Source: Micromonospora phaseoli (GTDB taxonomy: Bacteria > Actinomycetota > Actinomycetes > Mycobacteriales > Micromonosporaceae). Taken from it: DNA of 64,000 nucleotides. Shown one piece after another: positions 29,663-33,936 of the stretch; positions within the stretch are counted from its first letter, which is position 1, and each line of letters starts with the position of its first letter. The notes beneath the pieces were generated by a model, which saw only the letters and a program-made list of their open reading frames with translations, searched no databases and was not told where the DNA came from. Where the stretch lies: NCBI RefSeq assembly GCF_900109115.1, contig NZ_FNYV01000001.1, forward strand, positions 509,003-573,002, written 5' to 3'. Made by a program: the position numbers and the translations under genes.

Positions 29663-31951
29663 TCAGGGGGTGGGGGTGAGGGTGGTCAGGTGTTGGGTGG
29701 CTCGGGTCAGGGCCACGTAGAGGTCGCTGCGGCCTCGGGGTGACTCGGCGACGATGCGGTCGGGGTCGACCACGACGACCGAGTCGAATTCCAGGCCCTT
29801 GGCCTCGGCGACGGTCAGCACCACGACCCGGCTCTCCAGGTCCGGTTGCTCACCGACGGCCGCCTCCGGTAGCGCCCGGGTCAGGGTGGCGCCGAGGTCG
29901 TCGACCCGGCCGGCCGGGACGATCACGCCGAGCCGCCCGTCGGTCAGGCCGGCCGCCTCCGCCGTGGCGACCTCGACCAACTCCGCCGCCAGCCGCGCCG
30001 CCGGCACCGCACGGGTCTGCGGCGCGAAGCCGCTGGAGCGTACGGCGCGCGGCGGGCGCAGCGTCGGGTCGATCTCGGCGAGCACACCAGCGGCGACCGC
30101 CATGATCTCGGCGGGGGTGCGGTAGCTGACGGTCAGCTCGGTCAGCCGCCAGCGGTCCGCCACGTACGGCGCCAGCGCATCGGCCCACGACGGTGTGCCG
30201 GCCAGCGCCCCGGTCTGCGCCACGTCACCCACGATGGTCATCGAACGGCTCGGGCAGCGGCGCATGAGCAGCCGCCAGGCCATCGGCGACAACTCCTGCG
30301 CCTCGTCGACGATGACGTGGCCGAACGCCCAGCCCCGGTCGGCCGCCGCCCGCTGCGCGGTGGTCAGCCGATCCGTCTCCTCCTGCCGTTCCAGCAGCCG
30401 ATCGGCGTCGATCAGGTCGGTCACGCCGAGGATCTCGCCACCCTCGGCCTCGTCCTCGACGTCGATCGACCGGGAACCCCGGGCGATCTCCAGCACACCC
30501 TCGGCGTACTCGCGTTGGACGGCACGGATCCGCTCCCGGCGGGCGGCGGCGGCCCGGTCGTCCTCACCGAGCAGCTCCGCCGCCTCGTCCAGCAGCGGCA
30601 CGTCCGCCGGTGTCCAGCCACCCGGCTCGCGGTGCAGGGCGGCCCGCTCCTCGGCGGTGAGCTGCGGCCCGGCGGTGGCGATCCGGTCGGTCGAGGCGTA
30701 CAGGTCGGCGAGCAGGCGCTGCGGGGTGAGCAACGGCCACAGCTCGTCCAGCGCGGCCCGGACCTGCGGCTCCTCGCCCAGCTCGCGGCGGATCTCGGCG
30801 AGGTCCGCCTCCTCCAGCAGGTTCTCCCCGCCGAGCGGGTCGGCGCCGATCCGGTCGGCCACCTGACCGGCCAGCGCATGGATGACCTCGATGTCGAAGA
30901 CGGCGCGGGCCAGATTGTGCGGCCGGCCACTGCGCCGGGCCCGGTCGCGCGCCGCCTGCACGGTCCGCGGGTCGAGCACGAGGATCTCTCGCTGCGGCAG
31001 CTCGATCTCCAGCGGCTCGTCGGGCACCTGTTGCCGATCGCGTACGGCGTTGGCCAGCACCTCGACCATCGCAGACCGCCCCTTCAGGGCGGCGGTGGTG
31101 GCGGGCTCGGTCCGGCGGGCGCTGACCCCCGGGAAGAGATCTCCCTGGGTACGCAGCAGCACGCCGGTCTCGGCCAGCGCCGGCAGCACCTGCGAGATGT
31201 AGCGCAGGAAGGTGAGGTTCGGACCGACCAGCAGCACACCACGGGTGGAGAGCTCCCGGCGGTGGGTGTAGAGCAGGTACGCGGCGCGGTGCAGCGCCAC
31301 CGCGGTCTTGCCGGTGCCGGGGCCGCCCTGCACCACCAGCACACCGGGCAGGTCGGCGCGGATGATCCGGTCCTGTTCGACCTGGATGGTCTCGACGATG
31401 TCGCGCATCCGGCCGGTGCGCCCCGCGTTGAGCGCGGCCAGCAGCGACGCCTCGCCGGTCAGCTCCTCGTGGGCGGTGGGGGAGGCGGTGGCCAGGTCGA
31501 GCACCTCGTCGTTGACGCCCACCACTTTGCGTTGCCGGGTACGCAGGTGCCGGCGTCGTCTAATGCCCTGCGGATTGGCGGCGGTGGCGAGGTAGAAGGC
31601 TCGGGCGGCCGGGGCACGCCAGTCCATCAGCAGCGGCTCGTAGTCACCGTCGGTGTCGAAGATGCCGATCCGGCCGATGTAGTGGCGGTCACCGCCGTCG
31701 GTGTCCAACCGGCCGAAACACAGCCCGTTCTCCACCGCCGAGAACTGCTCCACCTGCTCGGCGTACATGCGTACCGTGCCGTCCCGCTGGGAACGGGCCT
31801 GCAATGTGCCGCCGGTCGCCCGCAGTTGCTCGGTGAGCCGCTGCGACGCCTGCTCCCGCAGGTCGTCCAGGCGCTGGTAGAGCATCGAGACGTACTCCTG
31901 CTCGCGGCCGATCTCGTCGTCGGACGGCGAACCGCCGGAGTGCCTTGACAA
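29663..31951 (-). CDS. HelD/HelR-like RNA polymerase-associated helicase
   Basis: 762 residues of UvrD-like superfamily 1 in the HelD arrangement: an N-terminal coiled coil (about 10-65), Walker A GGPGTGKTA near 208, a long inserted middle domain, DEAQELSP near 546 and VSYRTPAEIM and VALTRATQHL near the end. HelD proteins free stalled RNA polymerase from DNA, and some actinobacterial members (HelR) protect it from rifamycins. The start is TTG with GGGAG five bases upstream. A strong promoter of opposite direction overlaps the start codon region. Confidence 0.9.
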   Translation of the reverse strand: MSRHSGGSPSDDEIGREQEYVSMLYQRLDDLREQASQRLTEQLRATGGTLQARSQRDGTVRMYAEQVEQFSAVENGLCFGRLDTDGGDRHYIGRIGIFDTDGDYEPLLMDWRAPAARAFYLATAANPQGIRRRRHLRTRQRKVVGVNDEVLDLATASPTAHEELTGEASLLAALNAGRTGRMRDIVETIQVEQDRIIRADLPGVLVVQGGPGTGKTAVALHRAAYLLYTHRRELSTRGVLLVGPNLTFLRYISQVLPALAETGVLLRTQGDLFPGVSARRTEPATTAALKGRSAMVEVLANAVRDRQQVPDEPLEIELPQREILVLDPRTVQAARDRARRSGRPHNLARAVFDIEVIHALAGQVADRIGADPLGGENLLEEADLAEIRRELGEEPQVRAALDELWPLLTPQRLLADLYASTDRIATAGPQLTAEERAALHREPGGWTPADVPLLDEAAELLGEDDRAAAARRERIRAVQREYAEGVLEIARGSRSIDVEDEAEGGEILGVTDLIDADRLLERQEETDRLTTAQRAAADRGWAFGHVIVDEAQELSPMAWRLLMRRCPSRSMTIVGDVAQTGALAGTPSWADALAPYVADRWRLTELTVSYRTPAEIMAVAAGVLAEIDPTLRPPRAVRSSGFAPQTRAVPAARLAAELVEVATAEAAGLTDGRLGVIVPAGRVDDLGATLTRALPEAAVGEQPDLESRVVVLTVAEAKGLEFDSVVVVDPDRIVAESPRGRSDLYVALTRATQHLTTLTPTP

Positions 31952-31974
31952 TCGGTCTCCCGGTTGGCTAGAAT
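31945..31974 (+). promoter_or_regulatory. Near-consensus promoter divergent from helD, antisense to its start
   Basis: TTGACA (31945-31950), 18-bp spacer, TAGAAT (31969-31974) on the plus strand. It is the strongest housekeeping-type promoter match I found in the window. Transcription would begin near 31981 and meet a terminator hairpin at once. The -35 box overlaps the TTG start codon of the helD-like gene. Confidence 0.65.
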
Positions 31975-31982
31975 TCGCATTC

Positions 31983-32011
31983 AGAACGGCTTTTCAGAGC
32001 CGTTCTTTTTT
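31983..32011 (+). terminator. Intrinsic terminator with U-tract, no upstream gene
   Basis: AGAACGGCT (31983-31991) pairs exactly with 31998-32006 around a TTTCAG loop and is followed by a run of six T. It has the polarity of a plus-strand terminator. No plus-strand gene ends here; it lies about two bases after the predicted start site of the promoter at 31945-31974. U-tract terminators are rare in such high-GC DNA. Confidence 0.75.
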
Positions 32012-32103
32012 GTGCCTGAACTGCCAAAGATACCGGGCGGCGAACGGCGCGGCCAGGCGAGGCCGATCCTGACACAGCCTCCACCCGACCTCGACCGTCA
32101 CTG

Positions 32104-33936
32104 TCAGCGACGCTCGGTGCAGACCTCGCCGGAGCGGGCGATGGTGTCGGTGGACCAGGCGACCGCCACGGTGAAGCAGTAGTCGAGGCTGCGGTTGAGG
32201 CCGTAGACGACGAAGCTGTCGGTGCCGGCCGGTAGGTCGGCGAAGGCGTTCTGCGGCTGTCCCGTCCGGCCACCGGCGACGATCACCGGTCCCTCCGCCC
32301 CGGCCGGGTACGTCCACCGCAACGCCACGCTGTCCCGGTTGTCGCGCAGCGAGAGCCCGGTGGGCGGGGCGCCGGGGGAGACCGGTGGCGCATCGGAGGC
32401 GGCGGCCGTCGGGGCGGTCGAGTCGCCGGGGACGCCGCTCGCGGCCGGGGGCGCCGGATCGTCACCGCCGACGCGGGAGACCCCGGCGATGACCGCGGCG
32501 GCACCGAGCAGCACCACGATGACTCCCGCGGCGACGATCGGCACCAGCCGGTTCGGCCGGTTCGGTGGCGGCGGGGTGGCGGCGCGGCGTACCGGGACCG
32601 GAAGCAGCCGCGACGGTGACTGCGGGCGGGCGGGCTCGACTTCCCGACGCAGCCGGTACACCCCGGGCGCCTGCGGTGGGCCGGTCAGCCCGACCACGTT
32701 CGGTGGTACGGGAGCGCCGGTCGGCGGCTCGGCGGGATACGGATCCGGCTCGGGCTGCCCCACCCACCAGTCCTCCGGTGGCCCGGCCGGGCCGTCGGCC
32801 GGCTGCCGGGGCGTGGGGACCGCATGTGCCGCACCGGCGGGGGAGTGAGCCGCCGGCTGGTATCCCTGGCTCGGGTGGTAGCCCTCGGCGGGATGCTGCT
32901 GCTCGTCGGCGTGGTGGGTCACCGGCCACTGCTGGCCGCCGTCGTCGGGACCGGACCAGCTCGCCGGCCCCTCGCCCGAGGTGGCCCGGTCCGGCTCCGA
33001 GGGCGCCGACCACGCGGCCCGGGAGTCGGCCGTCGCGGGCGGGAACTCCCCTGGCGTGGGCGGGAACTCGGCCGTCGCGGGTGGGAACTCGGCCGGTGCG
33101 GCCCAGCTCGGCTCGGCGGCACGCCAGGCGGACTGCGTCTCGTCGCCGGCGGGTGGGGTGCGGGCGGGTGGGGCGTCGCCGGCGGGTGGGACCCGGGCGG
33201 ACGGTACGACCGGGTCCTCCACACTGACCGGTGGGTTCTCGGCGCAGACGTGATCGGGGCTCGCCGCTGCCCGGGCCAACGTCGCCACCTGGGCGGTCAG
33301 CGGGTCGTCGGAGGCGAGGTGCTGTCGGGCCAACTCGCGGGCCAGGGCCAGGTTGTCGTGGGCCTCGGCGAACTGACCACAGTCGCGTTGCATCGACCCG
33401 AGTCGGGCCAGCATCTTGATGCCGCTCGGATGCCCGTCACCGTAGACCTCGCGGTGCAGCTCCCAGGCGTCCTGCAGGCGGTCGCGGGCGACCTGGCACT
33501 GGCCTCGGGCGTACTCCACGGTGGCCAGGTCGGCGTGGGCGGCGAGCACCCGCAGCGACTCCGGCCCGTCCGACGCGGTCAGTTCGATGATCACTTCTTG
33601 GTACAGCCGGGCGGCCCGGGACCAGCTGCCCACCCGGTGCAGCACCGCCGCCAGGGTGGCCGCGGCGGCCACCGTACGCGGATCGGAGCGGCCGTGCAGA
33701 CCGCCGGTGGCGGCGTACGCGTAGGCGGCCCAACCGCGCGCCGAGTGCGGCTCGCCCAGCGCGAGCAGCACCCGCGCGTGCAGGCTGGCCGCCTCGGCCA
33801 TGTCGGGGCTCGCATTGGCCGGGCGCGGGTCGGCGCCGGTCAGCGCGTCGGCGAGCAGCCGTTGGGCGCCGGCGAGATCGCCGGCGGAAACCAGGTCGTG
33901 CGCCTGATCAGTCAGTTCACCGAAGCCGGAGGGCAC
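32104..33936 (-). CDS. TPR protein with Pro-rich linker, one membrane span and FN3-like tail
   Basis: 610 residues. N-terminal helical TPR-like repeats (about 1-220), a long disordered Pro/Ala/Glu-rich stretch (about 230-440, with EFPPATAEFPPTPGEFPPAT repeats), a basic segment, one transmembrane span (about 466-490, LVPIVAAGVIVVLLGAAAVIAGV) and an extracytoplasmic domain of about 85 residues with fibronectin type III-like features. This suggests a membrane-anchored adaptor. The downstream end is convergent with nothing; helD follows in the same direction. Confidence 0.8.
   Translation of the reverse strand: MPSGFGELTDQAHDLVSAGDLAGAQRLLADALTGADPRPANASPDMAEAASLHARVLLALGEPHSARGWAAYAYAATGGLHGRSDPRTVAAAATLAAVLHRVGSWSRAARLYQEVIIELTASDGPESLRVLAAHADLATVEYARGQCQVARDRLQDAWELHREVYGDGHPSGIKMLARLGSMQRDCGQFAEAHDNLALARELARQHLASDDPLTAQVATLARAAASPDHVCAENPPVSVEDPVVPSARVPPAGDAPPARTPPAGDETQSAWRAAEPSWAAPAEFPPATAEFPPTPGEFPPATADSRAAWSAPSEPDRATSGEGPASWSGPDDGGQQWPVTHHADEQQHPAEGYHPSQGYQPAAHSPAGAAHAVPTPRQPADGPAGPPEDWWVGQPEPDPYPAEPPTGAPVPPNVVGLTGPPQAPGVYRLRREVEPARPQSPSRLLPVPVRRAATPPPPNRPNRLVPIVAAGVIVVLLGAAAVIAGVSRVGGDDPAPPAASGVPGDSTAPTAAASDAPPVSPGAPPTGLSLRDNRDSVALRWTYPAGAEGPVIVAGGRTGQPQNAFADLPAGTDSFVVYGLNRSLDYCFTVAVAWSTDTIARSGEVCTERR

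Follow-up and report, generated by a model that had tools for sequence, protein, structure and literature searches.

HelD is an enzyme that frees stuck RNA polymerase. Directly upstream of its gene in Micromonospora phaseoli, two convergent sigma-70-type promoters were found by sequence and conservation: a weak-looking one reading into helD, and a strong-looking one running antisense, with its -35 element placed over the helD start codon and an intrinsic terminator behind it that lies between the two. We consider it probable on balance that this arrangement is a cis-acting switch, in which interference between convergent promoters controls helD in the manner of the Bacillus subtilis rifampicin alarm. 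Both promoter motifs, the terminator, its strand and the fixed spacing are predicted elements that sequence and comparison firmly establish; induction of helD by polymerase inhibitors in Micromonospora would follow by analogy.

The window, that is the whole stretch of 64,000 nucleotides analysed, carries helD on the minus strand (29663-31951; 762 aa, TTG start). Direct reading confirmed the promoter and hairpin described in the first-pass annotation: TTGACA (31945-31950), an 18-bp spacer and TAGAAT (31969-31974) on the plus strand, antisense to helD, followed by a terminator (31983-32011, plus strand) with a 10-bp stem (31983-31992 and 31997-32006), a loop of 4 and a T6 run (32006-32011). The promoter also opposes and overlaps the TTG start as had been claimed, its -35 being the complement of the helD start, namely the TTG codon (31951-31949), the Ser2 codon TCA and part of the flanks (TTG-TCA-A). 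The helD Shine-Dalgarno sequence GGGAGA (31961-31956, minus strand) sits within the antisense spacer. This was the sole promoter-like match on either strand of the 10 kb between 27,000 and 37,000 (shuffles gave 0.2, sd 0.5), and the hairpin was the sole terminator-like match there. Since shuffles gave 1.5 of the latter (sd 1.2), a terminator-like match alone is not rare; it is the combination with a promoter that is. Exact TTGACA-18-TANNNT sites number 10 in the 6.5-Mb genome, and only the helD one has a terminator within 120 bp behind it, a distance that is our own criterion. For the predicted antisense RNA of 33 nt, the folding energy was -14.8 kcal/mol (z -5.64), which none of 200 shuffles equalled. 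The opposing helD promoter, on the minus strand, has TATCTT (32027-32032) as its -10, at a distance of 52 bp from that of the antisense promoter, and a weak -35 region CTGGCC (32051-32056; genus consensus TTGGTC) at spacer 18. Counted as letter match, which is not activity, the antisense promoter agrees with the consensus at 11 of 12 positions, and the sense genus consensus TTGGTC-18-TATCTT at 7 of 12. Upstream of helD, and on its strand, lies a gene (32104-33936) for a TPR-type protein that partially matches an FxSxx-system TPR family (73 bits for a cut-off of 300). Within the window, tRNA alone reached the Rfam gathering score; weak Rfam matches obtained at permissive thresholds were below cut-off and were dropped.

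The product of the gene is, by its sequence, a class II HelD, an RNA polymerase recycling factor. In phmmer searches it scored 620 bits against Mycobacterium smegmatis HelD (6yxu_H), with residues 7-672 and 714-758 aligned, versus 110 bits against the class I HelD of B. subtilis (6wvk_H). Its NCBIfam scores were all below cut-off (HelR_2, 782 for a cut-off of 1100; HelD_MYCSM, 717 for 1051; HelR, 468 for 750). The earlier description of the gene as HelD/HelR-like was thus right as to HelD and not as to HelR: the product falls under both NCBIfam HelR cut-offs, and the HelR of this genome is a paralogue on another contig, C9, which scored 1264 bits for the HelR cut-off of 750. None of the remaining helD paralogues in this genome, on contigs C9, C24 and C25, begins with TTGTCA. 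The stretch upstream of the C24 paralogue has TTGACA on the antisense strand, but without TANNNT at spacer 18.

We then compared the locus across the genus, using 151 genomes (the M. phaseoli genome and 150 others). The N-terminal helD region was examined in 146 of them; G001, G053, G089, G126 and G128 gave weaker matches or lacked the N-terminus and were left out. These sequences are related, and the counts that follow are not independent. The gene start TTGTCA, which gives the antisense TTGACA, was exact in 145 of the 146, and the antisense spacer before TANNNT measured 18 bp in 140 and 17 bp in 4. Among 145 sequences, the three key bases of the antisense -10 were conserved at 97, 99 and 99% and the inner three at 65-83%, and the eight columns downstream of it held merely 0.08-0.50 bits. 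A terminator faced the antisense direction in 143 of 146 genomes and the sense direction in 1, for 28 and 2 of 730 shuffles, respectively, from a shuffler that made few swaps per sequence. Runs of five or more T occurred on the antisense strand in 135 of 146, and runs of five or more A in none. Promoter and hairpin are therefore kept in the alignment of helD upstream regions that the first-pass annotation had asked for (145, 140 and 143 of 146 for the -35, -10 and terminator), and the objection from absent conservation fails.

Such conservation could in principle arise from a chance match, or purely from coding and ribosome-binding constraints, as the start codon and the Shine-Dalgarno sequence, whose GAG columns (-8 to -6) are invariant in the 145 sequences, overlap the antisense -35 and spacer. 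Yet the conserved letters of the -10 are situated upstream of those used for coding and ribosome binding, and the window, opposite-strand and shuffle controls stayed low. In the 32 ORFs of the window, TCA makes up 4.2% of Ser codons and TTG is the start codon of 4, helD included; because both are rare, protein coding does not explain the fixed TTG-TCA letters. We regard this explanation as having a negligible chance of being right. One genus member, L229 (G011), differs by a single base in the antisense -35 and lacks both the U-run and TANNNT at spacer 18, while it keeps the sense TATCTT; it is possibly a natural loss of the switch.

The opposing promoter is equally constant in position. In 144 of 146 genomes, 49-55 bp separated the antisense -10 from a sense -10 (TATCTT or a near variant), and in 107 the distance was 51 or 52 bp; this pattern was defined after inspection of the genus sequences, and plain TANNNT was used outside the genus. 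The column profile of 145 sequences also revealed a weaker TTGGTC-like region at spacer 18, which probably serves as the sense -35. If transcription begins about 7 bases from each -10, the predicted start sites are about 40 bp apart.

We asked which strand of the hairpin is the folded one, using an alignment of 56 of 106 dissimilar segments, chosen for diversity and with Catellatospora and L039 left out. All nine hairpin pairs showed compensatory changes, and 88.1% of the cells paired, falling to 32-63% when the alignment was slid. Both sides had changed in 69 cells, a value matched by none of 500 shuffles, which gave 16.3 (sd 3.5). At pairs 12-17, wobbles fitting the antisense RNA (GU/UG) were present in 22 cells and those fitting the opposite strand (AC/CA) in 3; pair 18-29, at the end, was mixed (7 vs 9), and this pair table leaves out the two outermost pairs. 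The antisense RNA is therefore the folded strand and, with the U-run on the antisense side, the selected object is on sequence grounds the predicted antisense terminator. The reverse idea would be that the hairpin acts in the helD mRNA leader, through stability, translation or attenuation, with the antisense promoter being secondary. The sense leader does contain the inverted repeat and folds at -23.9 kcal/mol (z -2.28), but the wobbles at pairs 12-17 favour the antisense strand, the U-run is on that side as well (135 vs 0 of 146) and the Shine-Dalgarno sequence is outside the hairpin. An action in the leader thus appears very improbable to us.

The first-pass annotation had also proposed that the promoter makes a tiny RNA, and the predicted product, a stable hairpin of about 30 nt, would suit a trans-acting role. 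Between genera, however, compensated changes replace the stem sequence, and loops differ both in length and in sequence, while the promoters, the fold, the U-run and the spacing stay. Since the fold is kept and the RNA sequence is not, these data argue for action in cis, and a functional tiny RNA is most unlikely, slightly more so than a leader element.

The module extends beyond the genus. From 565 confirmed loci, the best 80 serve as our named set, 58 of them from outside Micromonospora; they overlap with our other locus sets (L008 and L093, for example). Of these 58, 45 had TGTCAA at the start and 13 lacked an exact TGTCAA. In the 45, TANNNT was present at spacer 17, 18 and 19 in 6, 18 and 16 loci, and also at 20 in 7. 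A sense TANNNT lay 47-55 bp away in 34 of the 40 loci with spacers of 17-19, and thirteen other 9-bp windows gave 0-4 of 40. The eight Streptomyces loci among the best 80 of 565 read TTGACA-18-TATACT (seven) or TTGACA-18-TACACT (one), with an opposing TATATT in all eight. Two metagenome-assembled genomes, L049 (Streptosporangiaceae) and L055 (Actinobacteria), had a perfect TTGACA-18-TATAAT. By our criterion, 27 of the 67 module loci among the best 80 of 565 have no terminator near the promoter, including all eight Streptomyces and no Micromonospora; a terminator placed between the two promoters thus occurs mainly in Micromonosporaceae. Rfam returned nothing for the eight Streptomyces loci. The S. 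coelicolor sRNA scr2952, which shares its number with the helD paralogue SCO2952, was considered as a Streptomyces antisense RNA and rejected, as it had no match in these loci.

In a class-wide sample of 80 best-hit loci, hand-picked and not random (174 of 216 genomes had matches), 34 loci had an antisense promoter, allowing up to one mismatch in the -35, and 22 of these had a sense -10; the opposite strand gave 3 of 80 and shuffles 1 of 400. By family, the module was present in 17 of 17 loci of f19 (mostly with the -10 letters of the Streptomyces loci), 5 of 5 of f18, 8 of 10 of f17 (exact TTGACA in 1 of the 8) and 4 of 14 of f20. It was not found in this sample in the mycobacteria-like family f2 (0 of 11) or in thirteen smaller families taken together (0 of 23). 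The comparison leaves little doubt that strong selection acts on the predicted promoter geometry, both in Micromonospora and in several further families of Actinobacteria.

Streptomyces locus L079 adjoins ORFs read as thioredoxin-like and glucan-branching-enzyme-like, a neighbourhood that we take to be the SCO5439 position. Judged by protein length, SVEN_5092 (747 aa) is likely the S. venezuelae orthologue and module carrier. Peaks that appear as artefacts in ChIP-seq controls often mark polymerase-dense DNA. According to a WhiA ChIP-seq study (PMC3781837), the untagged control had its single peak upstream of sven5092, a hint at a short, constantly firing and polymerase-dense unit.

The precedent for a switch is the helD gene of B. 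subtilis, in which the fast antisense promoter keeps a slow sense promoter down (Sudzinova et al. 2026, PMC12802891). As described in that article, helD is released once low rifampicin has stalled the antisense promoter, the busier of the two, mutation of the antisense -10 removes both repression and induction, and induction requires a rifampicin-binding polymerase; the start sites are 39 bp apart and a 17-bp shortening abolishes regulation. The same dual-promoter alarm covers pps in the B. subtilis account (PMC12802891). For the three PPDK_N genes of M. phaseoli, which are possible pps relatives, the stretches examined contained neither an RAE core nor a promoter of the TTGAC type; this is a weak test.

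We propose that, in Micromonospora, the strong-looking antisense promoter, its -35 built into the helD start codon, would fire toward the weak-looking helD promoter, and that its polymerase would terminate once about 30 nt have been made, leaving roughly 10 bp to the predicted start site of helD. Interference would then have to be collision or occlusion at the start site, because the antisense RNA should stop before the sense promoter. Repeated short antisense runs may collide with or occlude polymerase at the sense promoter and hold helD low, and the terminator would keep each run short and out of the upstream gene. Following B. subtilis, a rifamycin or another inhibitor would stall the busy antisense promoter, interference would end and the sense promoter would fire, with HelD being made when stalled polymerases need clearing.

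Actinobacteria have another element linked to rifamycin, the RAE, whose core letters (CTTGCNGCAAG) were seen upstream of the C9 HelR paralogue in the form GGGCTTGCGGCAAGACC. No RAE core was present within 400 bp upstream of the 146 genus loci or of the 67 module loci among the best 80 of 565; it was present in 3 of 11 loci of f2, a family in which the module was not found. As no locus in these sets has both module and RAE, they represent, in these sets, two regulatory schemes on different helD genes. PMC12802891 says that the actinobacterial counterparts, helD included, feature the RAE, a 19-bp palindrome. The search described there used B. subtilis motifs in the 300 bp upstream of genes without overlap with other annotation; being restricted in this way, it would tend to miss a -35 inside an ORF.

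The first-pass annotation had suggested interference until polymerase is inhibited, as a drug-sensing switch. The mechanism itself has its demonstration in B. subtilis (PMC12802891) and its geometry is conserved here; drug induction would be by analogy, and a published statement on Streptomyces stands against it. According to PMC8655204, of the five helD genes of S. venezuelae only the RAE-linked HelR gene SVEN_6029 is induced by rifampicin, which argues against drug induction of module-type helD; the likely module carrier there is SVEN_5092. The control peak upstream of sven5092 hints the other way. It is possible, if doubtful, that the convergent pair keeps helD low in a growth-dependent manner and senses polymerase availability or the initiating nucleotide and not a drug, with rifamycin sensing left to RAE genes such as HelR. 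The RAE-like element upstream of HelR in the same genome would agree with this, as would the need of the B. subtilis antisense promoter for more initiating GTP (PMC12802891). Against it, the same promoter order and spacing give rifampicin induction in B. subtilis, and the key features of that alarm are seen in a minimal in vitro system, weaker than in cells (same source). We prefer the drug-responsive interference switch.

The RAE itself was inspected in 35 loci (L243, L245, L312, L313, L316 and L332-L361; 30 of them drawn from the 113 of 200 genomes that gave a match), including the two sites of the M. phaseoli genome, C9:794193 and C16:596215. The latter (G000:C16:596215-596231, L245) has no obvious target gene in the ORF list. 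The palindrome carries overlapping TTGCGG and TTGCCG. Exactly 19 bp from it, NANNNT was found on one side in 35 of 35 loci and on the other in 33 (TANNNT in 30), for at most 8 of 35 at any other spacer of 8-39. For mycobacteria, a review has placed the RAE over the -35 of a second sense promoter (PMC10719064); our set agrees with this on the sense-promoter side and adds an equally spaced -10 opposite. The RAE thus looks like the shared -35 of two divergent promoters with 19-bp spacers. A hairpin behind the RAE antisense -10 was rejected as a general feature: stems of at least 7 were counted at 16 of 35 loci, at 5 of 35 on the sense side and in 90 of 350 shuffles, with a mean z of -0.88.

Taken further, Actinobacteria might sense polymerase inhibition without a dedicated receptor, helD by a convergent pair with the start codon as antisense -35, and RAE genes (HelR and others) by a divergent pair sharing the palindrome as -35, with a 19-bp spacer to each side. 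On this view, a contest between promoters would take place at the RAE in lieu of binding by an unknown transcription factor, and one principle would appear in three forms: in the Bacillus alarm, in the HelD module and at the RAE. We put this forward as speculation that is rather unlikely to hold in full. It would suggest that no factor is needed to explain the RAE, the regulator of which is given as unknown in the literature consulted. More directly, the compact element of about 110 bp offers a reason for the rare TTG-TCA start of helD, and it extends the 2026 Bacillus discovery to rifamycin- and antibiotic-producing bacteria, for which the authors of that work point to the RAE. In our literature search, limited largely to openly available journal articles and judged from titles, abstracts and passages, we recognised no report of convergent promoters at actinobacterial helD.

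Among known systems, RAE-controlled HelR (M. abscessus, S. venezuelae) is similar in that a class II HelD is regulated and a link to rifamycin exists, but the module-type helD loci examined are without the RAE core, and the M. phaseoli product falls below the NCBIfam HelR cut-offs. In convergent-promoter interference generally (phage 186 and icsA, as cited in PMC12802891), a strong promoter likewise suppresses a weak opposing one, whereas the Micromonospora antisense unit would make short strokes that end at a terminator, and its spacing is kept from family to family. The closest system is the B. subtilis alarm. There, convergent promoters upstream of helD set a strong antisense promoter against a weak sense one, as the asymmetry of the motifs would predict for Micromonospora, the antisense spacer is long (19 bp, for 18 in Micromonospora and 19 in 16 of the 45 non-genus loci among the best 80 of 565), the start sites are 39 bp apart (about 40 predicted here) and the antisense transcript ends at an intrinsic terminator (predicted in 143 of 146 here). 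Unlike in B. subtilis, the actinobacterial gene encodes a class II HelD and the antisense -35 is formed by the start codon. The Micromonospora terminator lies between the promoters, giving a predicted antisense RNA of about 30 nt vs about 90 nt; the B. subtilis RNA crosses the sense promoter, whereas the Micromonospora one is predicted to end before it.
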